Source of the DNA: a virus
Reading direction: 5' to 3' (one strand)
DNA length: 64,000 bases
IMG/VR virus record: IMGVR_UViG_3300008261_000084
Span: 1 to 64,000 of that record
Of this stretch, positions 6,560 through 23,400 are shown piece after piece (position 1 is the first letter of the stretch; each line of letters opens with the position of its first letter). The notes beneath the pieces were generated by a model. The model ran no database searches and had not been told where the DNA came from. It saw only the letters and a list, made by a program, of their open reading frames with translations. The translations under genes and the position numbers were made by a program.

Positions 6560-8806
6560 ATGGCAATTTTAGCACCTGTAATACATTGTGATGATGCAGT
6601 GATAAATATTTCACCTAATCCCATAATAGCTAATACACCTGTTACAGGAACAATAACTATTCCTTATACAGGAGGAAGTATTGCTCCTAGTCCGTACCCA
6701 AGTGTAGATGTACCTTTAGATTCTGTTTATACAACTGATTCATCAAATCCAGGATTAACAGCAACATTAAGACCAGGTACTACTCCACAAAGTTTAAGCT
6801 TAACTGTAGGAGGGCCAGGTGAATTTATATTAGATGTAACAGGTCAAGTATCACAAAGTGGTGTACCTGTTGTGTTTAACTTTACAATGTTTGGAGGTTG
6901 TCAAATTACAATACCTGTAGCAGCGGCTCCACCATCACCATCTGTTGAGTCTTTAAATTGTATAGATCGTGTAATAAATATTACACCAAATCCTGTTATT
7001 CCAAATACTCCTGTTACAGGAACTGTTACTATTCCTTACACCGGTGGTAATGGTCAACCTTATTCTTCAGTTGTTATTAACTCAACATATAATACAGGTT
7101 TAACTGCAACATTAGTTCCAGGAACTTTATCTAATGGTTCAGGGGGAAATCTTGTTTTAAATATAACAGGACAAGTTAGTGGAGGTGGTTTACAAGCTGT
7201 TTTTGATTTTTCTTTTGGAGGACAGAATTGTGATTTTGCAATTGATGTTCCTGAATATTATCCTCAAGGTAATCAATGGTATGTATTATATCCTTGTTAC
7301 AGTGATGATTCAGACTTAAAAATTTTATTTTCAAAAGCTACAGCATTAGCAGCTCATGTAGATGAAACTAGATATTTACACTGGGGTGAATGTTTAAATC
7401 TACCACCTGATTTTTATGAACCTTGCGGGTGTTATAAAATTAAGAAATGGACAGGGTTTACACCAACAACAAATTTATATCCTAATATAAATGAAAATAA
7501 TATTGACAATAACTGTGATGATTGTAATTCATATTGTTTAAGTGTTAATGGTGTAGGTAATGTATCTTATGTATCTAGTGAAGATCAACAGATAACAACA
7601 AGTCTTCCAGCATTAATTTGTACTAAGACACAACTATATACACCATCAACACCTTCCCCTACAATAATAGCATTATCTGAATGTAGTTCATCTAATGATT
7701 GTAAAATTGACTGTTATGAATTAACTAATTGTAAAACAGGACAAATTATATATACTAACAGTTCATCATTATTTAATGCTTTTGCGGGAAACAAAGCTGT
7801 AGAACTATATGAGTATGAGGGATGCTGGACTGTTGACATAGGTATAGAATGTGAATGTTTAGTAGAAGTAACAGTTAAAAATTCTTATACAGACTGTATT
7901 AAATGTTTACCTATTGTTGCATATGTTCTTACAAATTGTGAAAATGAACTATTACAAAAATTTTCTGAAGAAGATCTATTACCTTATGTTGGAAAAATAG
8001 TTTCTTTAGATTGTGGAGATTGTTGGTATGTTGATCAAATAGATTATAAGCCACCACAAACACAAGAGTTTGTTATTGAGAATGTGTATGAATCATGTGA
8101 GCAATGTTCAAGAGCTTACTTCATATTATTTGATTGTGAAGGGTCCTTAGAGCCAATTACTACTTTTACTGATATGACTACTTATTTGGGTAGTACTTTA
8201 AAATTAGCAGGATATACAGGCTGTTGGACCGTACAAACTTCTCCTACTCCAGATTATGAAAATGCGGTAGGAGTATCTGTGACTACAGAGTTTGAAGATT
8301 GTGATGCATGTCAAACAGTTACAGGATGTACTTGTACTAAATTAAAAAATACTAGTACAGTTGAAGCTACAGCAAGTTATTTAGATTGCTCAGGTATACA
8401 ACAAACTATTACTTTAGATGCTGGAGACTCAACTGTAAAAATATGTGTTAATAGATGGTTATCAAAAAACCCTGCATATTTTGAAACAACAGAATTTGGT
8501 GATTGTGTTGAAAATGAAGGTACTGGTATTAAAGAATGTCCAGCTGTTTTAAATGGTAGAATGGTAAGACCTGGTTATACAGCACCAACTTGCGATACTG
8601 AAAAATTTGAAAGAATAACTTGTGAGACAGCAGAAATATTATACAAACAAGTTTTACAATTAAGATATGGTATAAGTAACTGTTGTCCTGAAGATGATGA
8701 TAAAGTGTTAGTTAAAAAAGAAATTCTTGACATACAAGCACTAACGGATAAGGATTATATTTGTAGTAACTTAGAAAATTGTAACTGTTCAAGTTGTAAT
8801 AATTAA
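6560..8806 (+). CDS. Multi-repeat Cys-rich adhesin/fibre protein, 748 aa
   Basis: Residues 1-125 and 130-240 are two tandem copies of a beta-sandwich-like repeat. Compare [20 protein letters not shown] with [20 protein letters not shown], each followed by GT(I/V)TIPYTGG. From about residue 245 to 600 come several Cys-rich repeats built on an Y.LTNC....I.T....L..YVG..V.L...CWTV pattern ([29 protein letters not shown], with CWTV or CWYV closings). The C-terminus is helical and ends in a Cys cluster (NCNCSSCNN). Repeated Ig-like and CWTV-type units are typical of phage surface fibres. The lack of a signal peptide fits a virion protein. A fibre or receptor-binding role is inferred. Confidence 0.6.
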
Positions 8807-8819
8807 AATAATTTTATTT

Positions 8820-10835
8820 ATGAAACCGTTAAATTTAAATAGCCAAAATTGTTCACCTATATCTTCAAACTGTGTTGTTTGGGAAGGGCCTAATATGCCA
8901 TGTATTAAATTATGCAAAGGTGATACAATATCTGACGTAATTGCTGAACTTGCAAATAAGTTATGCTCTTTATTTGATTCATTAGATGCTACATCATATG
9001 ATACAACATGTTTAGAATTAACTAAACAACCAAAAACAACTCAAGAATTAATACAAGTATTAATTGATAAAATATGTGACTTATCAAAAGCACCTGGTCC
9101 AAGAGGACCTGTTGGTCAAAGAGGTATAACTGGTCAACCAGGTACACCTGGTCCTGAAGGTCCGAAAGGAGATCTGGGCCCTGAAGGTCCAGAGGGTCCA
9201 GAAGGTCCAGCAGGTCCTCCAGGACAACCAGGTCAAAGAGGTGAAAAGGGTGATCCTGGTCTTCAAGGAGGTAAGGGTGATAAAGGTGATAAAGGAGATA
9301 AAGGTGAACAGGGTGAACAGGGTGAGAAAGGTGACCAAGGTGAAAAAGGTGAAAAAGGAGATCAAGGAGACAAAGGAGACAAAGGAGACAAAGGAGATCA
9401 AGGAGACAAAGGAGATCAAGGGGAAGTTGGCCCTAAAGGATTGGTTGATGTAACAACAAATTGTATAGAAGGTATTACTTCAAATACTGACATATACGCA
9501 TATGTTGATGTATCATCAGGTCCATATAGTAATGATTCTTGTGGTAGTGATGCAGATACAAATAGAAGTCTTCTATTTGTTGCAGTTAATGATTGGTATA
9601 ATGCATATAAATTAGCAAATCCTGATTATACAGGAAATCTTTACATATTTGTAGTTAATCAACCTGAGAATTATTTAAAGTGGCCTAGAAAAATTATAGA
9701 AGGAACTTTTACTGGTTTACTTCCATGGAATAGTGGTCCGCTTCCAAATCCTTCTCAAGTTATATGGATAGACCCAGCAACAGGTACAGCTGGTGATACT
9801 TATGCACCTTCTAATTTTGATACTGCAAACACTGGTCCAAATCCTTTGTGGGTTCCACCAACATCAATATTGTATATAGCATTTGTTAATGAATCTAATA
9901 TACCATCAGGTTATGAAAATTCTGATTATTATACATACCATGGTACTAATGCTATTCCTTCTTTAACAGTAGATCAACTACAACCAACATTAGGTTGGAC
10001 AACAGATTATAATGAGTTTACTTCTGATTATGCTGATCACTGGACTTTTTTTAAAGGTGTTATTTATCCTGTATATTGGTCAGGTTCTGCAAATCATGCT
10101 AATAACTTTTTATTACATGCATATGCAGCAACAACAAATGATGATATATCACTTACAGGATTACAGACTACACTAGGAGCTAATTACGATGCAGGGGTTT
10201 TTGGAGGTGTAACAGTTGGTCCTGGTTCTAACTTATATAAAACAAATAATCAAGGTTTATGGGATTATGGATGGTATTCATTTTTAGATAAAACATCAAG
10301 CGGTTGTAGTATAACATTTACAGCTACAGAATTTGCAGAGGATCTTGATTCTATACTTTACACTCCCGGTTTTGATACAGCTTCAATTATTGATAGTTGG
10401 GATTCTGATTCAGGAGTATTAACTTTAAAAGGTATAACATCAAGTTCTTTAGAAATTACTGATAATGATGGTTGTGTTCAAATTGAATGTGGTGACTGTG
10501 GTGCATCTACACATCTTTCTGTAAGAGTTCTGCCAGTGTGGGATGAAAACTCTTTAATTGCTTATCCTAGCGGTGCCGTAGGTGAAGTACTTTATTTTTG
10601 GGAGTTTGCTCAATCATATCCTTTACATGAATTTACAACACCTACCAATTTACAAACTGTTGGTTATACTCCTTGGCTTGTAGGAGGTGACTATAAACTT
10701 TATGGTGATGCTAATACTAATAATGCTTATTTTTATATGACATTAGCAAAAGTTAGTATTACAGATAGTTTAGGACGTAGTGCTTATGATACATATATGT
10801 TAATTAATGCTGATATATTTCAAAATAGACAATAG
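8820..10835 (+). CDS. Collagen-like fibre protein, 671 aa
   Basis: Residues 1-90 form an attachment module ([46 protein letters not shown]) shared with the next fibre gene. Residues 93-209 are an unbroken run of about 39 Gly-X-Y triplets, first Pro-rich and then dominated by GDKG, GEKG and GDQG. The remaining 460 residues form a globular tip with many Trp, Tyr, Asn and Asp residues, no recognised enzyme motif and a short Cys pair (ECGDCG). Phage collagen-like stalks form trimeric rods that hold a receptor-binding head. The Lys/Asp-rich triplets should stabilise the rod by salt bridges without hydroxyproline. A tail or head fibre role is likely. Confidence 0.75.
9096..9440 (+). repeat. Gly-X-Y coding repeat (9-base periodicity)
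   Basis: DNA encoding the collagen-like stalk. The last half (about 9270-9420) is nearly pure tandem repetition of GGAGAYMAA / GGTGAWMAA units, so copy number could change by slippage or recombination in steps of three residues. Confidence 0.9.
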
Positions 10836-10883
10836 TTGAGTAAGTTAGTTTGTCTAACCTAATAAATTGCATTTCAAAAATAT

Positions 10884-10901
10884 TATAACTATATTATATA
10901 T
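10884..10901 (+). promoter_or_regulatory. Candidate promoter or initiation motif (TATAACTATATTATATAT)
   Basis: It shares the ACTATATTATATATA core with the motif at 4071-4090 and lies in a 66-base gap directly against the ATG at 10902. If it acts as a promoter, the transcript would be nearly leaderless. It might instead be an AT-rich translation start element. Confidence 0.4.
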
Positions 10902-12773
10902 ATGAAACCACTTAATTTAGATAATAATTCTTGTAGTCCAATATCAAGTAACTGTGTTATTTGGCAAGGTCCAAATATCCCTTGTATAAAACTATGTACT
11001 GGAGATAGCATTACTGATGTTATACATGCATTGGCTACTGAGTTATGTAATATTGTTGATCAAGTTGACATATCAACATTAGATTTGTCTTGTTTAGATA
11101 TTACTACTGGTGAACCTGCAAACTTAAATGAACTATTACAAATTTTAATTAATAAAATATGTAGTGTAAATAATGTACCTGTTCCAGCTACTTCTCCAAA
11201 AAGAGGTGGTTCATCTTGTCCTACAGATTGTATCGTACCAGTTGCTGAATGTTTACAAACAGGTGGTCAAACAACAATGAAACTGTTAGACTATGTTCAA
11301 TTAATTGCTAATAAGATTTGTACAATTTTAGATAGTATTACAACTATCAATAATTCAATTACTAATTTAACAACAAGAGTAACTATATTAGAATCTGTTC
11401 CACCAACACCACCATATATATTACCTAGTGTTAGACCAGATTGTACATTAGCTGATGGAAGTGTAGTTTCAGGAACAGAATATAAATTAAATATAATATT
11501 AGAAGCATTAATAAATGATGATAACCACGGGTACTGTGCATTGCTTTCTTCTACAGGACAACCTTCTGAAATAACACAAGCTTACTTATCACAACCAGTA
11601 TTTGGTACAGATATAGCATTATCACAATGTAATACAACATTAGCACAAAAGTTTGCTACTAGTTGGTTTACTTCTCCAGATAATTTAAGTAAAAGTTTTA
11701 CAGACTTATGGTTAACAGTAAAGGATTTAAGAGATGCTTATAAAACATATAAAGTTGTAGCAGGTAACTCTAATGTAACAGTTACCCCAACAACTAATGT
11801 TACAGCTTGTGGACCTGAATTACAATTTGCGGTTTCTGCAAAAGGATCATCAGTTGTTGCAGGTACTAATGTTACTGTAACATCAAATGAGGTTGCCGGA
11901 AATACAACTTATACTGTAAATGCAACTTCAAAAAATACTACTGTTGTAGCTGGTGATAATATTACAGTAGCAGCAAATACAACAGATCCTACAAATACAA
12001 TTTATACAGTAACAGGTAAAGAAGCAATTGTAACTGCATCAACAGATACAAATAATACTGCTACAGTAACTCCTACACCAGGACCTGGATCAAATGATAC
12101 AACATATTCTGTATATAGTAGATATGGTTTAGAATCAGTTGTATTTGCAACAGTAATAAATACTACAGCAAAACCAACTTTTATTCTAAAAAATTCAGGT
12201 GGTCCATTTACAGGTGATATTCCAATAAGAACACCAGGTGGGGCAATAACAATTGGTGAAGATATGGATATGTTAGTTCGTTATAATGTTGTAACTATTA
12301 ATGATACAACTACTTCGACTATAACTACCGCAGGTGGTTATGTTCCTAATCAAACATTACCATTTGGAACATATTTTGCTGATCAAGGAACTGTTGTTTT
12401 TAATAAAGAAGGTACATATCAAATAACAGGTACATTACAATTAAAATCTACAAATGCAACACCTCCTATTTGGCAATCATCAGGTATAGGTTCATTTCAT
12501 TTAGGAATTTTATCTAATGCTAATAATGTTTATACGGGAAATTCACAATCTTTACAAGGACCTATTACTTATGTTACTAGTGTAACACCTTTGGCAACAG
12601 CTACTATTCCTGGTCAACATACTACAGTATCATTATCAGCTACAACAACAGCTAGATTAGGTTCAGGAGATCAGGTTAGATTGGGTGTGTTTAATTTTTC
12701 GGATAGACTATATAATGGTAATGAATACGGAGCTAGTGATATAATTAGATTTGCAATTACAAGATTAAGATAA
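10902..12773 (+). CDS. Fibre protein paralogous to the collagen-like fibre, 623 aa
   Basis: The first 90 residues match the preceding fibre almost word for word ([42 protein letters not shown]), so both attach by the same N-terminal module. Instead of collagen there is a helical/coiled region (residues about 125-170, TINNSITNLTTRVTILES). A Thr/Asn-rich beta-repeat follows at about 285-400, where VVAGTNVTVTSN and VVAGDNITVAAN recur. The C-terminal beta-rich head (about 405-623) contains NKEGTYQITGTLQLK, GSGDQVRLGVFNFSDR and IIRFAITRLR, which resembles a C1q/TNF-like jelly roll. A trimeric receptor-binding fibre is the likely role; the head fold is a guess from pattern. Confidence 0.65.
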   Translation: MKPLNLDNNSCSPISSNCVIWQGPNIPCIKLCTGDSITDVIHALATELCNIVDQVDISTLDLSCLDITTGEPANLNELLQILINKICSVNNVPVPATSPKRGGSSCPTDCIVPVAECLQTGGQTTMKLLDYVQLIANKICTILDSITTINNSITNLTTRVTILESVPPTPPYILPSVRPDCTLADGSVVSGTEYKLNIILEALINDDNHGYCALLSSTGQPSEITQAYLSQPVFGTDIALSQCNTTLAQKFATSWFTSPDNLSKSFTDLWLTVKDLRDAYKTYKVVAGNSNVTVTPTTNVTACGPELQFAVSAKGSSVVAGTNVTVTSNEVAGNTTYTVNATSKNTTVVAGDNITVAANTTDPTNTIYTVTGKEAIVTASTDTNNTATVTPTPGPGSNDTTYSVYSRYGLESVVFATVINTTAKPTFILKNSGGPFTGDIPIRTPGGAITIGEDMDMLVRYNVVTINDTTTSTITTAGGYVPNQTLPFGTYFADQGTVVFNKEGTYQITGTLQLKSTNATPPIWQSSGIGSFHLGILSNANNVYTGNSQSLQGPITYVTSVTPLATATIPGQHTTVSLSATTTARLGSGDQVRLGVFNFSDRLYNGNEYGASDIIRFAITRLR

Positions 12774-14769: not shown

Positions 14770-15405
14770 ATGAGCTTATTAAAAAATATAGATGTTTGGA
14801 AAGGTTATAGACCAAGAGTATGCAATTTTGATCTTGATGATTATTGTTTATCTGGTATTATTGGTAATAATATTACAGGTATTGCAGACATACCAAGTTC
14901 AAGTAGTTTGGGTCAAGACCCAGATTCTTTATGGACTACAGCAAGAGCTACAAGAGATGCATATTTAAGAGCTGTTAACGAAGTGTTTGGAACTTGTATA
15001 AATTTTTATATTGATCCTGATGCTAATAATCCATCACCTTATCGAGAATGTATTACAGAAAGTCAATGGAATGCAATAATGGATTTATATAACGGTCCTG
15101 ATGGTTTTGTTAGTAAATCAATTAATTTAATAACAAAAGGTGATTTATTTTTTAATTCTTTGATGCCTAGTAGGCTTAAAAGAACTGATACTGTAACATG
15201 GTATTATAGAAAATTTATTATTTCTTATCAAGATCTTCCTGTACAAGAGCCACAAGTTTTTTTTACAATAGATTTTAAAACTTCATTATACCCTACAGCT
15301 CAAAGTTATATTGAATATACTGAATGTGTAAGAGATTATGTTCAATTTGTAAAAAGATTTATTAAAGCAATTACTAATTGTGATTTTCAAATTTACCAAC
15401 CTTAA
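14770..15405 (+). CDS. Duplicated cassette, copy 1, small protein, 211 aa
   Basis: The start MSLLKNIDVWKGYRPRVCNF and the block TTARATRDAYLRAVNEVFG are repeated closely in the first 205 residues of the 403-aa protein at 16825 (MSFIKNIQVWNNQIPRVCNF, TTARATRDAYVRSLDQLF). The rest is helical with several aromatic residues. It ends FQIYQP, exactly where its paralogue continues into a lectin-like domain, so this copy lacks the variable adhesin head. It may be the structural base on which the variable version is built, perhaps forming mixed oligomers. The function is otherwise unknown. Confidence 0.65.
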   Translation: MSLLKNIDVWKGYRPRVCNFDLDDYCLSGIIGNNITGIADIPSSSSLGQDPDSLWTTARATRDAYLRAVNEVFGTCINFYIDPDANNPSPYRECITESQWNAIMDLYNGPDGFVSKSINLITKGDLFFNSLMPSRLKRTDTVTWYYRKFIISYQDLPVQEPQVFFTIDFKTSLYPTAQSYIEYTECVRDYVQFVKRFIKAITNCDFQIYQP

Positions 15406-15410
15406 TAATT

Positions 15411-16784
15411 ATGGCACGTTGTAATTCATGTAATCAAAATAATAACAATCCTATAGTGACACCACCAGTTGAGTGTCCTACACCTATTAAGTGTGATGAG
15501 GTAATGGATGCTTTGTGTGTATTATACACAGGAGATAAAATTAATCTTTGTCTTACTAATGAAGCTGCTATAAACAAATCCGACAACTTATCTGAAATAC
15601 TACAAATATTAGTAGATAAAATATGTGCTCTAGAGCAGAAAAATGTTGTAACGGCAGAGATATTACACAATAATTCAGGAGCACCTTTTCCTACCCTAGT
15701 ATCTCAGGTAACAGGAGGAGTAGGTCCTTACACATATCAATGGAGAGCTGCCTTAACACCAACAATTACAGATAATACTTTTATTAACACAAGTACTGTA
15801 GTAGGAGGTCATAGAGTAATAGGTTCAACTACTAATCCATTTTTAAATTTAGATGCTATAAACATTATGGGTATAGAATCTAAATTTGATATGGATAACA
15901 TAAAGTTTTCTTACTTAGAACTTATAGTAACTGATTCATTAGGTAATAAAGGAAATGCATATTATAAATATACTTCATCTTGTTATGAAACTGTACCTGT
16001 AGCATCATTACCAAGACCACAATACTTAGGGGCTAATCTTAAAAGTAATACTGGTTATCCAGGTGCAGAATGGAAATTCCCATCATTAGATTTTTGTGAC
16101 AACTATAATCTTATGACAACATGCGATAATCTTAAAAATCTTTATTGTATACCAGGTTATGAATATGGAGCAGATGCAGATGCTGAGTATAGATCTGAAA
16201 GAAATACTTATTTACGGGATTTAAATGAAAATTTATTAGCAGCTGAAATAGGTGTACCAGCTTCACAACTAGTAGATTTAGAACCTCAAGTAGAATCATT
16301 AAAAGATTTACAAAGTTTGTTAGGTTATAGACCTGATGGTTTTATGACATTTACTAATTTAATGTCATGTCCACAATGTAGTAAAGAAGCATGGAATGTT
16401 ATTACATATAATGGTGATACATTATCTGAAATATTTCCTTCATTAACAAATCCATCTTGTGATTTTTATTGGCTTGAACAAAGCAATTCATTTCCAATAA
16501 CAGGTCAAGCAGGACAACTTTTTATATTAGAAGGTAGTAGTGATACATATGCATGGAATCCTACTAGTCAAAATTGGGATATAAACTTAGGTCTTTTAAT
16601 TGTAAACAATTTTCTTTCTGATACAAATCAAGCAGGTGAGACATTAGTAAGTGAATATAAAAGATATTTGAATGATTTTATACAAGCTCATTTACCTTTT
16701 TTAGAAGCTAATTTGTATATTCCATTACATAGATGGAAATACAATACTATAAGATATAATCATTGTAGTTGTGATGGACAGTAA
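15411..16784 (+). CDS. Duplicated cassette, copy 2, large protein, 457 aa
   Basis: This is a paralogue of the 454-aa protein. It has a Cys-rich start (MARCNSCNQNNNNP), an anchor module (CDEVMDALCVLYTGDKINLC, LSEILQILVDKICALE) resembling that of the collagen-like fibre, a beta domain with GGVGPYTYQWRAAL and LIVTDSLGNKG, and a C-terminal domain with YRSERNTYLRDLNENLLAAE and YAWNPTSQNWD. The shared anchor links this cassette to the fibre family. A 40-base gap separates it from the partner gene carrying the lectin-like variable domain. It is likely a fibre or adhesin subunit. How the two genes' products assemble is not visible from sequence. Confidence 0.65.
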   Translation: MARCNSCNQNNNNPIVTPPVECPTPIKCDEVMDALCVLYTGDKINLCLTNEAAINKSDNLSEILQILVDKICALEQKNVVTAEILHNNSGAPFPTLVSQVTGGVGPYTYQWRAALTPTITDNTFINTSTVVGGHRVIGSTTNPFLNLDAINIMGIESKFDMDNIKFSYLELIVTDSLGNKGNAYYKYTSSCYETVPVASLPRPQYLGANLKSNTGYPGAEWKFPSLDFCDNYNLMTTCDNLKNLYCIPGYEYGADADAEYRSERNTYLRDLNENLLAAEIGVPASQLVDLEPQVESLKDLQSLLGYRPDGFMTFTNLMSCPQCSKEAWNVITYNGDTLSEIFPSLTNPSCDFYWLEQSNSFPITGQAGQLFILEGSSDTYAWNPTSQNWDINLGLLIVNNFLSDTNQAGETLVSEYKRYLNDFIQAHLPFLEANLYIPLHRWKYNTIRYNHCSCDGQ

Positions 16785-16824
16785 CAAACTATAAAAAATA
16801 GAGCATAAAATTAAATTAAGAATT

Positions 16825-18036
16825 ATGAGTTTTATAAAAAACATACAAGTTTGGAATAATCAGATACCAAGAGTTTGCAATTTTGATTTTGAAGATTACA
16901 CAACTTCTGGTTGGGTTGGTAATAATTGTAGACTTTTTACTAATCCACAAGATAATTATAATAACTTATGTGCAGAAGATATAGCTACAACAGCTAGAGC
17001 AACTAGAGATGCATATGTTAGATCATTAGATCAACTATTTGATTCTATATATGAGTTTTATTTTAATCAAGATAATCCAACATATGGTATAACACGTTCT
17101 GAAAATAATAATTGTATAACACCTACACAGAGACAAGCTTTTTTAGATGCCTATTGGGGACCAACAGGATTAAAATCAAAACTTTGGGATGTACTTTTTA
17201 TAAAACAACCGCAATTATTCAATGCTATGTATCCAAGCTGTAGTAGTGAAAAGTATAACGGAATACAAGATTTTACCGTAAATTGGCAAAGTGCTTATGG
17301 TCAACCAAGTACACCTGTAACATATCAAATTGATTTTACAAATTATCAATCTTTAAATTATTACATAGTAGACGCATATGAGTTAGCTATTAAAAATCTT
17401 ATGCAAGAAGTAAAAAATACTTTGATAAAATTAACTAATGCCCCTTTAACTATTAGTCAAAATAAAACATGTTCTGATGATGTTACAATCGGATCTCAAA
17501 TATGGACTAGATGTAATTTAGGTATAACAACATACAGAAATGGAGAGGTAATACCACAGGTGACTGATCCTACTCAATGGAGTAATCTTACTACAGGAGC
17601 GTGGTGCTATTATAATAATGATCCTTCTACTGAACCTAAATACGGTAAACTATACAATTGGTATGCCGTTAATGATCCTAGAGGTATTGCTCCAACTGGT
17701 TATCACGTACCAAGTGATACTGAGTGGACAGTTTTAACAGATTATCTAGGTGGTGAAAGTGTTGCAGGTGGTAAAATGAAAAAAGCAGGTACAGCTTATT
17801 GGAATGCTCCTAATACAGATGCAACTAATAGTTCAGGATTTACTGGTCTTCCGGGCGGTGACCGCTCCAACAATGGTGTTTACAGCACCATTGGCTACAA
17901 CGGTAGCTGGTGGAGTTCTTCAGAGGACAATACAAACTATGCTTGGTACCGCTACCTGAGCAACAGCGATGGCGGTGCACACAGGGACAGCTACAATAAG
18001 TTTAGCGGGTTCTCTGTTAGACTCATCAAAGATTAA
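16825..18036 (+). CDS. DGR target adhesin: cassette paralogue fused to a FISUMP lectin-like domain, 403 aa
   Basis: Residues 1-205 are paralogous to the 211-aa protein upstream. Residues about 212-403 form a FISUMP-type domain (Fibrobacter succinogenes major paralogous family, C-type-lectin-like), seen in IGSQIWTRCNLGITTYRNGE, YNWYAVNDPRGIAPTGYHVP, DTEWTVLTDYLGG, SGFTGLPGGDR, WWSSSE and the terminal GFSVRLIKD. This domain is a common diversification target of diversity-generating retroelements, where reverse transcription mutates template adenines. From residue 343 on, composition jumps to about 50% GC (hand count 93/186) from about 25-30% upstream. Codons become strongly NNC (AGC, GAC, TAC, CAC, AAC), as expected from AAC template codons. 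It is probably the variable receptor-binding tip. No reverse transcriptase or template repeat is in the window. Confidence 0.8.
   Translation: MSFIKNIQVWNNQIPRVCNFDFEDYTTSGWVGNNCRLFTNPQDNYNNLCAEDIATTARATRDAYVRSLDQLFDSIYEFYFNQDNPTYGITRSENNNCITPTQRQAFLDAYWGPTGLKSKLWDVLFIKQPQLFNAMYPSCSSEKYNGIQDFTVNWQSAYGQPSTPVTYQIDFTNYQSLNYYIVDAYELAIKNLMQEVKNTLIKLTNAPLTISQNKTCSDDVTIGSQIWTRCNLGITTYRNGEVIPQVTDPTQWSNLTTGAWCYYNNDPSTEPKYGKLYNWYAVNDPRGIAPTGYHVPSDTEWTVLTDYLGGESVAGGKMKKAGTAYWNAPNTDATNSSGFTGLPGGDRSNNGVYSTIGYNGSWWSSSEDNTNYAWYRYLSNSDGGAHRDSYNKFSGFSVRLIKD
17851..18036 (+). other. Predicted DGR variable region (VR)
   Basis: This 3'-terminal stretch encodes residues 343-403 of the lectin-like domain. The invariant-looking frame NG, TIG, NG, WWSSSE, NT, AW, GFSVR is interrupted by residues D, S, Y, H, A, N and F, most encoded by NNC codons reachable from AAC by changing the first two bases. 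The composition breaks sharply from the surrounding AT-rich DNA at about 17850 and again after the stop. The boundaries are estimates because the template repeat is not available here. Confidence 0.75.
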
Positions 18037-18087
18037 ATATAATTAGTTAGTTGAAGTTTGTTGGTTTATTCTTACAACTACGGACAG

Positions 18088-18115
18088 ACCCCTGCACTTG
18101 TAGGGGTTTTGTTTT
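18088..18115 (+). terminator. Hairpin with T-rich tail after the DGR target gene
   Basis: An 8-bp stem (18088-18095 with 18100-18107, one G-T pair) and a tetraloop ACTT are followed by TTTTGTTTT. It is a good terminator candidate. DGR target genes also often carry a short hairpin with a 4-base loop just downstream of the VR that promotes retrohoming. This one lies 52 bases after the stop, farther than in the Bordetella phage, so either reading is open. Confidence 0.7.
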
Positions 18116-20461: not shown

Positions 20462-23400
20462 ATGTCAGATAAATTACAAGATACTTCCCAAAATGTAACC
20501 GACAGTTTCATAAAGGGTCTGAATAAAGATTCAGATCCTTCTTATGTTACAGACGGTATGTGGACACATGCTGTTAATATGGTTAATAATTCTAAGACAG
20601 GTAAAGTAGGTTCTATATCTAATGAATCTGCCAATTACTTGTGCTTTAATACTGGCTTGTTTATGGCTGCCGGAGCTACTGAAAAGTTAGTGATAGGTAC
20701 TATATATTTATTTTCAGATAAATGGATAATTTTTACGGCAGGTCATAATAGTTTTGGTCAACCAGTTAGTGCTGAAATAGGTTTATTTGAAGAAGAGAAT
20801 TGCTCATACAAACCTATTGTTATTGATCCATGTTTAAATTTTGATAGAAGACATTTGATATCTGGTGTATCAAGATTAAGAGAAGATTGTACTTGGCAAG
20901 TATACTGGTCTGATGGTTTAAATCCGGATAGATACTTAAATGTTGGAGATCCTCAAACTTGGCCAGGACCAGACTACTCTTACATGGGATCTGTTGGAGC
21001 TAATGCAAACTATTATGAAGGACCTGGAGGTACTAAAATACTTTGGCCAAATGTACAATGGAATGAAGAATGTAAAGATGAAAATAATCAGATAGTACCA
21101 AAAGCTAACTATACAGCTGTAGGGTGTATTACTTGTAAAAACTTAAACACTTTAGATTGTGATCATATAAGATTAGCAAGATTAATGAAAACTCCTTGTT
21201 TAAAATTAAAAAGAGGGCAACAAGGGGGTACACTGGCTAACGGGACATATTTTGCTCTTATAGCATATACAGTAAAGGGACAGAAAGTAACTGATTACTT
21301 TGCACAAAGTAATTACCAGTTTATATATTCTCCACAAAATCTTCAAGGTTCACTTACTTTAGAGATATCTGCAGATAATGAAAACTTTGATGAGTTTCAA
21401 TTAGTAATTGTAAAGTGTGTAAGAGAACAAACAGTTGCACAATTGATGGGTATTTATTCTACTAATACAAGTACACTAAGCTTTGATCAAATTGACAGTG
21501 GTAGTAACATATCAGAACCACTTGAACAATTACCTTTACAAACACCGGTATATGAAACTTCAGATCAAATGGCTGAAGTAAATAATTATTTATTAAGAAT
21601 AGGACCAAGAAGTAAGTTTAATTTTAATTACCAACCATTAGCTAACTTAATTAAAACTAAGTGGGCTTCTGTAGAATATCCTGCGGATTACTACATGAAA
21701 GGTGGTAATAAAACCAATTATATGAGAGATGAAGTATATTCATTTTTCATTAGATGGGTCTACAATACAGGAGATAAATCTCCATCTTTTCATATTCCTG
21801 GAAGACCCCCTAGAGATTTTGCGGTTCCTAATGGTGTTACTCAAAAAGAAGATTCTGATTTAACAACTAATCAAAATTCATTATATGCAGATGACAAAGT
21901 ATTTGAAGTCTATAATACTGCTTCAATTGACAATGTGTCTACATTAGTTGGTACTAAAACTGATGATGGTGGAGAAGTTATAGCAACAGGAGATATGGGA
22001 TACTGGCAATCAAGTGAAAAGTATCCTGACAATAGAGCTGATATATGGAATCCTTCTAATCATTGTTGGACAGGAGAAACTACAAATGCATATGACTTGT
22101 GTGGTAAATACATTAGACATCATAAATTTCCTGAAGACTATACTGCCGGTAATAATTCAGCAAGTGTAACACACTTTAGAATAAATCCTACACCTAAGAA
22201 TAATTCTAATGATTATTACATTAGATTAATGGGTGTTTACTTTGAGAACATTGCATTACCAAAAGATAATGATGGTAATGATATTCCTGGTATTGCGGGT
22301 TTTGAAATTCTTAGAGGTTCAAGAGAAGGTAATAAAACTATTGTTGCTAAAGGTTTAGTAAACAATTTTAGAACATATCAAATTCCTGGAACCGGTGGTT
22401 TTAGTGCAACAGGTTTATATCCTAATTATCCTTTTAATACTATACAACCTTTAAGTAATACTTTAGGAGGTAATGTGGCTGGATATAATGATCCATATAT
22501 TAAAGCTGGTGTAAGTTCATTATATAATCAAACTGTACCAGATGATATATTTAGTTTCCATTCACCGGATACTATGATAAGAACACCATTCTTATCTACA
22601 ACAGAATTTAAAACATATGGTCAGTTATCAGGATATACACAACAAAACTTTAACATACCAACAGATCACCCTAAATTTAAATTATTATCTGATGTAGTTG
22701 TAATACCTATGATATTTGGTGGTCTTGCTGAAGCTATTATTTCAATGGTGGGTAAAAGAACTTCTGTGTCTCCAGGACCAGCATACCAAGATATTCAAAT
22801 ACCAGAAGTTCAAGGTGAAGAAATAAAAGGTAATGCTATTAATGGTACACCTATTACAGGTGGTGCAAGTGGTTCTGCTAATAATAATGGAGCAATTGCA
22901 ATTGTAGCTGGGGTTACCAATGGTACTTTAGCAATGGTTGAAAATGTTGTTTACACACCTTTAAGTGGTGGTAGTATTAGTGGTGGTGAAATAAGTGGTG
23001 GTGATATAAAAACAGATCCTAAACGAGCTTCTGATCCGGGTCAATTTGCTACGGTACTTAGTGGATTTACTGGTGCTAAAACTGGTTATAATCTAGGTGG
23101 TGCAATAATTGCAGATGCTTTAGCTGGTGGTGGTGGTTTAGAGGCTGTTTATACTAATGCTGCAAAAGCAGGTACGTATATTGATGGAGGTGTATATACG
23201 GGTCTTACATTAAACACAGAATATGCACAATCACAATATTTACCAAAAGTACTTGCAATTGCTAATAACATAGGAAAAATAGCTTATTATTTTTCTGAAG
23301 GTGCCAGAGTAACATTAGATTTAATATATGCTGTTACTGGATACAAACAATTTGCATTACAACAAAAAGCATATGGTTTTTATTCTAATATGGATAAAAA

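Follow-up and report, generated by a model that had tools for sequence, protein, structure and literature searches.

The segment at 17842–18020 of the phage DNA analyzed here is, on the basis of sequence comparisons, a genuine variable region (VR) of a diversity-generating retroelement (DGR), and it is located in the FISUMP (PF09603) domain of an attachment-type protein. The DNA examined (the window) comprises 64,000 nt, positions 1 to 64,000 of the 84,452-nt IMG/VR record IMGVR_UViG_3300008261_000084. The phage lacks a DGR of its own: neither the whole record nor a complete relative that carries fresh VRs contained one. We consider it somewhat probable that this orphan VR is diversified in trans by a DGR of the host. 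The wider proposal is that a Flavobacteriales phage lineage retains the target half only and that a retroelement on the host chromosome hypermutates the attachment protein by cross-genome mutagenic retrohoming, with host range being explored only in DGR-bearing hosts. In our estimation, this proposal is about evenly balanced.

Target gene and its neighborhood

The features discussed are as follows.
16825–18036, + strand: target gene, 403 aa (ORF list), with a phage-specific N-terminal module and a C-terminal FISUMP domain
16825–17457, + strand: N-terminal module, a complete 211-aa gene in the sister phage L283
17479–18033, + strand: FISUMP domain PF09603 (Pfam), C-type-lectin-like by predicted fold
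17842–18020, + strand: DGR VR, 179 nt, with 146 identities, 29 adenine-site mismatches, and 4 other mismatches to the L210/L229 template repeat (TR)
18021–18036, + strand: phage-type 3′ end (LIKD-stop) in place of the host-type CLRD end, from a comparison with host VRs and TRs
18046–18115, + strand: 3′ UTR with a hairpin around TTTGTTGGTTT, then an intrinsic-terminator hairpin, conserved in the phage group

The target gene is located among virion structural genes, and its neighbors match PHROG virion structural families. A 1850-aa ORF at 20462–26014 matches the muzzle protein of csAssE-Sib, and relatives are found in Lightbulbvirus. Because of the muzzle-protein homologue, the crAss-like affiliation implied in an earlier note on this DNA is plausible, with membership in the order (Crassvirales) being tentative. 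The target gene had no DNA match among INPHARED phages, and its protein matches there were weak only.

Residues 220–402 of the 403-aa ORF correspond to Pfam Fib_succ_major PF09603 (E 3.7e-41). For this domain, AlphaFold2 gave a model with a mean pLDDT of 89 (27 sequences in the alignment). A Foldseek search of the PDB with this model yielded no significant match. VIA-align ranked the InvE adhesin (Z 8.1), TvpA (2y3c; 7.5), formylglycine-generating enzymes (FGE; approximately 6.9), and Mtd (1yu3; 6.5), with Z values below 8 being taken as suggestive only. These middling values suggest that the predicted model agrees with the C-type-lectin-like fold seen in DGR targets. The claim that the FISUMP-type domain is a DGR target fold was borne out by the PF09603 match and by the resemblance of the model to TvpA, Mtd, and FGE, at Z <8.

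In the sister phage L283 (IMGVR_UViG_3300042885_000725), the N-terminal module is the whole 211-aa gene, which ends in ...PLTIS-stop where the FISUMP domain begins in the window. The two phages share 84% DNA identity over 644 columns, followed by the stop codon and then the same 3′ UTR at 98.4%. The flanks of this empty site (approximately 1340 nt upstream of match) are near-identical. Since L283 is a natural empty site that lacks FISUMP and the VR between near-identical flanks, the lectin tip is an accessory, exchangeable module. We also noted by eye that the start of another 211-aa ORF (14770–15405) resembles the N-terminal module at 16825–17457, as a paralogue would, and the structural genes around 14770–17457 appear to be duplicated.

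Composition and extent of the 3′ segment

The GC content of the 186 nt at 17851–18036 is 0.50, versus 0.32 in the rest of the gene and a window mean of 0.315; at 17401–17460, it is exactly 0.25. GC3 is 0.61 in the segment versus 0.13 elsewhere in ORF 16825–18036, and NNY codons end in C or T at a ratio of 20:7, compared with 14:98 upstream (Fisher p 7e-10). The composition break at the 3′ end of this ORF is real and unusual. Its GC contents, counted by hand as approximately 50 and 25%, and the switch to NNC codons had been described correctly in the earlier note. The bounds given there (17851–18036) describe the GC-rich tail; however, the VR proper spans 17842–18020. The template match begins 9 nt further 5′ (17842 vs 17851) and ends 16 nt short of the gene end, and the last 16 nt, encoding LIKD and the stop, are phage-type and outside the match.

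An equally GC-rich 186-nt stretch was present elsewhere in the window only at 9035–9434, which was rejected as a competing VR because it belongs to a collagen-like repeat gene. The structural-region phage ORF at 8820–10835 carries a collagen-like GXY repeat at 9090–9430, with the highest GC of the window. The target of a bacterial DGR (L229, 9516–11267) likewise has collagen repeats ahead of its FISUMP domain.

Template match of the variable region

Many phages in IMG/VR encode the same FISUMP domain. A subset of these shows a jump in GC3 at the tail (0.6 vs approximately 0.15), a common DNA scaffold, and varying NNC codons. The scaffold pattern was scanned over bacterial genomes, which yielded loci in which every variable codon is AAC or AAT; the best of these was L210. 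A comparison of 17842–18020 with the L210 TR revealed mismatches at 33 of 179 positions, 29 of which are at template adenines (hypergeometric p ~6e-10), and only one mismatch falls on an adenine in the phage copy. The third base is retained in 27 of the 29 template AAN codons, although in such codons the phage otherwise has C:T at 14:98. The match breaks off abruptly on both sides, close to where the TR and VR of the host cease to be homologous. Such a pattern is the hallmark of mutagenic retrohoming and does not reflect selection or base composition. Since the mismatches are mostly at template adenines and the third bases of AAN codons are kept, we regard the segment as a genuine DGR variable region, as the earlier note had proposed.

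The four non-adenine deviations from the L210 TR (17859, 17922, 17973, and 18006) each carry a base that VRs from the bacterial lineage of L210 have at the corresponding position, and, for this reason, a perfectly matching template may plausibly exist. A TR that agrees with the VR at all non-adenine sites was not found; the best agreed at 96.3%.

Matching DGRs in bacteria

The L210 copy is the TR in a complete DGR. In L229, the target (9516–11267; FISUMP-collagen), bAvd (8944–9339; PF22296), TR (8673–8851), and an RVT_1 reverse transcriptase (RT; 7359–8672) are arranged in order on one strand, and the flanks are apparently ordinary chromosomal genes. A second complete DGR of the same layout, L125, adjoins a dehydrogenase E2-type (lipoyl) gene, putatively a 2-oxoacid dehydrogenase E2. 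In a third, L215, the TR, Avd, and RT are together in a cultured isolate, Flavobacterium sp. CYK-55. The matching TRs are in complete target-Avd-TR-RT operons on Flavobacteriales chromosomes, and two template families match two phage groups. With strict cut-offs, matches, which comprise VRs as well as TRs, were obtained in 10 of 399 sampled genomes of Flavobacteriales and in 4 of 240 in the family of G021, the genome of L229.

Distant relatives of the phage with named hosts infect mainly Flavobacteriaceae (Cellulophaga and Flavobacterium), and the order to which these hosts belong, Flavobacteriales, is the order with the matching TRs. We infer that the DGR-bearing Flavobacteriales are hosts of the phage. 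The earlier note had argued that the element must act from a distance. The presence of the template and RT in bacterial genomes supports this claim; however, a machine in a bacterial host was not foreseen.

Several dispersed FISUMP VRs of one template were observed on different contigs in L217, L236, L239, L243, and L245 (G446, G377, G278, and G376). These genomes represent one Flavobacteriales lineage, and the arrangement looks as if one DGR served many targets per cell. Some MAG titles do not fit their contents: L105/L236 and L165 are labelled Candidatus Planktophila lacus, yet have Bacteroidota-type FISUMP genes, and the Planktophila-labelled MAG was placed in the same family as the L210 MAG, which is labelled Chryseobacterium gleum.

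Proposed action of the host DGR in trans

The RT and template were found only on Flavobacteriales chromosomes and in no phage searched, which suggests that the phage borrows the DGR of its probable host. The phage would carry the target only, with the TR, an error-prone RT, and Avd encoded on the Flavobacteriales host chromosome. During infection, the RT would copy host TR RNA into cDNA, inserting random bases at template adenines, and this mutated copy would take the place of the matching part of the phage gene. Progeny with new binding tips may then arise each time a DGR-bearing host is infected. A plasmid-supplied DGR has been shown to retarget a gene on a replicating phage (PMC3240598), and trans action within one genome was deduced from non-adenine identity (PMC10907252). 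We found no report of host DGRs acting on phage targets in the open-access literature, subscription papers and preprints being outside the search.

The main difficulty for homing in trans is the absence of the host-type 3′ end. Canonical homing should need an IMH. Host VRs and TRs share TGYCTSAGGGATT, which encodes CLRD, at their 3′ ends, and this sequence is probably the IMH, or initiation site, of the host DGRs. The phage VR lacks it, and phage VRs of the window kind end in a phage-type LIKD-like sequence. We speculate that homing might begin inside a 14-nt match, GGGTTCTCTGTTAG, and that a Sak4-like protein encoded by the phage (79201–79917 of the record) might anneal the cDNA.

The 3′ flank was considered as a DGR recognition element. 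The 3′ UTR (18046–18115) is 93–99% identical in sister phages, the genes of which are 74–91% identical, and its fold has a z-score of −2.9. A similar motif is present at the same place in many relatives, and no Rfam family matched above the threshold. However, the flank was rejected as a recognition element because it also occurs in phages without any FISUMP domain or VR. The 3′ hairpin is a terminator conserved across the genus and is not DGR-specific.

The same adenine signature would be explained equally well if already diversified VR segments were imported from host DGR targets, or from other phages, by ordinary or SSAP-mediated recombination, with no homing of cDNA to the phage. VRs ranging from fresh to eroded (non-adenine identity of 0.96 down to about 0.5) and shared by close relatives are what rare imports followed by drift would leave, and the Sak4-like annealing protein and the host 3′ end missing from the phage VR also fit this route. 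However, phage and host DNA outside the VR is only 57–70% identical, and VRs are approximately 70–80% identical to each other in short blocks, which makes a poor substrate for recombination. Furthermore, the boundaries are at or just inside the TR ends, and no host VR with the adenine-site residues of the phage was found. We consider import by recombination unlikely, though by no means negligible, and infer that VR sequence more probably reaches the phage by cDNA homing in trans than by DNA recombination.

Search for DGR machinery in phages

The earlier note had reported that neither RT nor TR is in the window, and it had proposed a search of the genome for a TR, RT, and Avd. The absence extends to the rest of the 84,452-nt record, which contained no RVT_1, no Avd, and no TR; BLAST found no template, and an adenine-tolerant scan of both strands gave no score approaching that of the VR itself. 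This linear 84-kb record is a fragment, and relatives reach approximately 121 kb. No RT was found in 63 related virus records (45 with related FISUMP genes and 18 more of the phage's own clade); one sub-threshold hit of 14.8 bits was within a 1494-aa ORF among the 45 FISUMP-phage records. As a control, the atypical RT of the crAss-like csAssE-Sib was recovered at 2.6e-12, and, therefore, the RT search is sensitive enough. The TR query matched only VRs in the relatives, and Avd PF22296 was absent from 6 phage records and present beside the TR in 3 bacteria. Avd is common in DGRs, but not universal.

Since many IMG/VR records are fragmentary, the absence of the machinery is most strongly supported by G010 (IMGVR_UViG_3300034082_001419). 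This genome of 121,494 nt looks complete because it has an exact 127-nt direct repeat at its ends. G010 has two fresh VRs, with non-adenine identities of 0.916 and 0.905 to the bacterial TR. However, it contained no RT, no Avd, and no TR, and the TR query returned its VRs only.

These results bear on the alternative of a phage-encoded RT and TR, located either in the unsequenced part of the genome or in a satellite or another phage infecting the same cell. The fragmentary record leaves room for them, and some crAss-like phages carry DGRs (PMC7290462, PMC11054128, PMC12386605). However, the findings in G010 and in the 63 relatives without RT are difficult to reconcile with it. In addition, neither an exact TR-like string nor host RT peptides, a scan that finds close relatives only, matched any IMG/VR viral contig. 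Phage DGR RTs are usually beside their target. This alternative appears improbable, and we retain action of a host DGR in trans as the preferred reading.

Variation between phages and history of the variable region

In most pairs of the window group, 50–65% of the template-adenine positions and 7–15% of the non-adenine positions differ; when the window is compared with fresh VRs, the non-adenine figure is 7–10% (p down to 1e-17). Between the window and L001, 40 of 72 template-adenine positions and 7 of 107 non-adenine positions differ (p 3.5e-13); the corresponding numbers for L034 are 47 of 72 and 7 of 107 (p 1.6e-17). Every pair of phages that we compared showed the adenine-site excess. A second phage group (L004, L009, L011, L023, L041, L089, and L090) matches the Flavobacterium CYK-55 template with the same adenine bias. 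The earlier note had held that the lack of a TR or RT throughout the genome, together with the lack of excess variation in this segment among related phages, would speak against a DGR. The former holds for the record and for the complete G010; however, the template-adenine excess between phages runs counter to the latter.

The FISUMP DNA just upstream of the VR differs by 18–31% between phages (approximately 18% for L001 and 30% for L022 and L034). Despite this divergence of the neighboring DNA, 93% of the non-adenine positions of the VR are shared. Since a singly inherited, drifting VR would not have a scaffold better conserved than its flank, refreshing of the VRs from a template common to the phages must have occurred repeatedly since their divergence. 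The series from fresh to eroded VRs suggests that refreshing is occasional and is followed by drift to AT-rich codons. Near-identical phage contigs mostly have identical VRs (L004–L007, L090/L099), so DGR activity on phage VRs is at most occasional. The only near-identical pair that differs is L041 and L043, which are 99.65% identical over 6 kb and have three template-adenine differences within 4 nt of the VR (codons 15–16, AGC GTC vs AAC TAC). We also noted that the complete phage genome L034 encodes three tandem FISUMP domains (10418–11770), two with fresh VRs and one with an eroded VR.

It is very improbable that the VR is a frozen relic of an ancestral phage with a full DGR that lost its RT and TR. 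The loss of RT has been reported in Epsilonunovirus phages (PMC11054128), and VRs identical among near-identical contigs are consistent with a relic; however, the scaffolds of phage VRs are better conserved than the DNA next to them, which points to refreshing after divergence, and the sister phage L283 lacks the whole FISUMP module. That the segment is merely a horizontally acquired, GC-rich lectin tail and no product of a DGR has almost no likelihood: the GC break itself would fit, but this reading is contradicted by the 29 of 33 mismatches at template adenines, the 27 of 29 AAN third bases kept, and the adenine excess in every pair.

Significance and comparison with known systems

DGRs are thought of as self-contained, with the phage or bacterium carrying its own machine. 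If the trans proposal is true, a virus that leaves the diversification of its host binding to a host retroelement represents a new form of virus-host dependence, and the host's own surface diversifier becomes a liability. Phages scored as DGR-negative would then need to be recounted as possible DGR clients. Orphan VRs may be searched for by matching phage genes to bacterial TRs. The proposal is open to direct testing, since at least one Flavobacterium isolate in culture carries the template and RT.

Both the VR and its template belong to a known type; the new element would be the division between a target in a virus and a machine in a bacterium. The closely matching Bacteroidota chromosomal DGRs (G021/L229, G023/L125, and Flavobacterium sp. 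CYK-55, G449) share the template, the target domain, and a 3′ VR with NNC codons. However, their RT, Avd, and TR adjoin the target in one chromosome, whereas the phage has the target only, without the host-type 3′ end. The DGRs of crAss-like phages (LMMB, csAssE-Sib, and Zeta/Lera) likewise have a C-type-lectin VR that ends a phage attachment protein, but these phages carry the RT and TR, which the present group does not. In Bordetella phage BPP-1, the adhesin Mtd is similarly varied in an adenine-directed manner, and artificial supply in trans works (PMC3240598). However, the natural BPP-1 DGR is self-contained, with an IMH and hairpin beside the VR, whereas the phage described here holds the target only. 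The remote targets of Thiohalocapsa PB-PSB1 (PMC10907252) also lack their own RT and TR and were linked to a distant template through identity at non-adenine positions. In Thiohalocapsa, the target and machinery are in one genome; here, they are in two, a virus and a bacterium.
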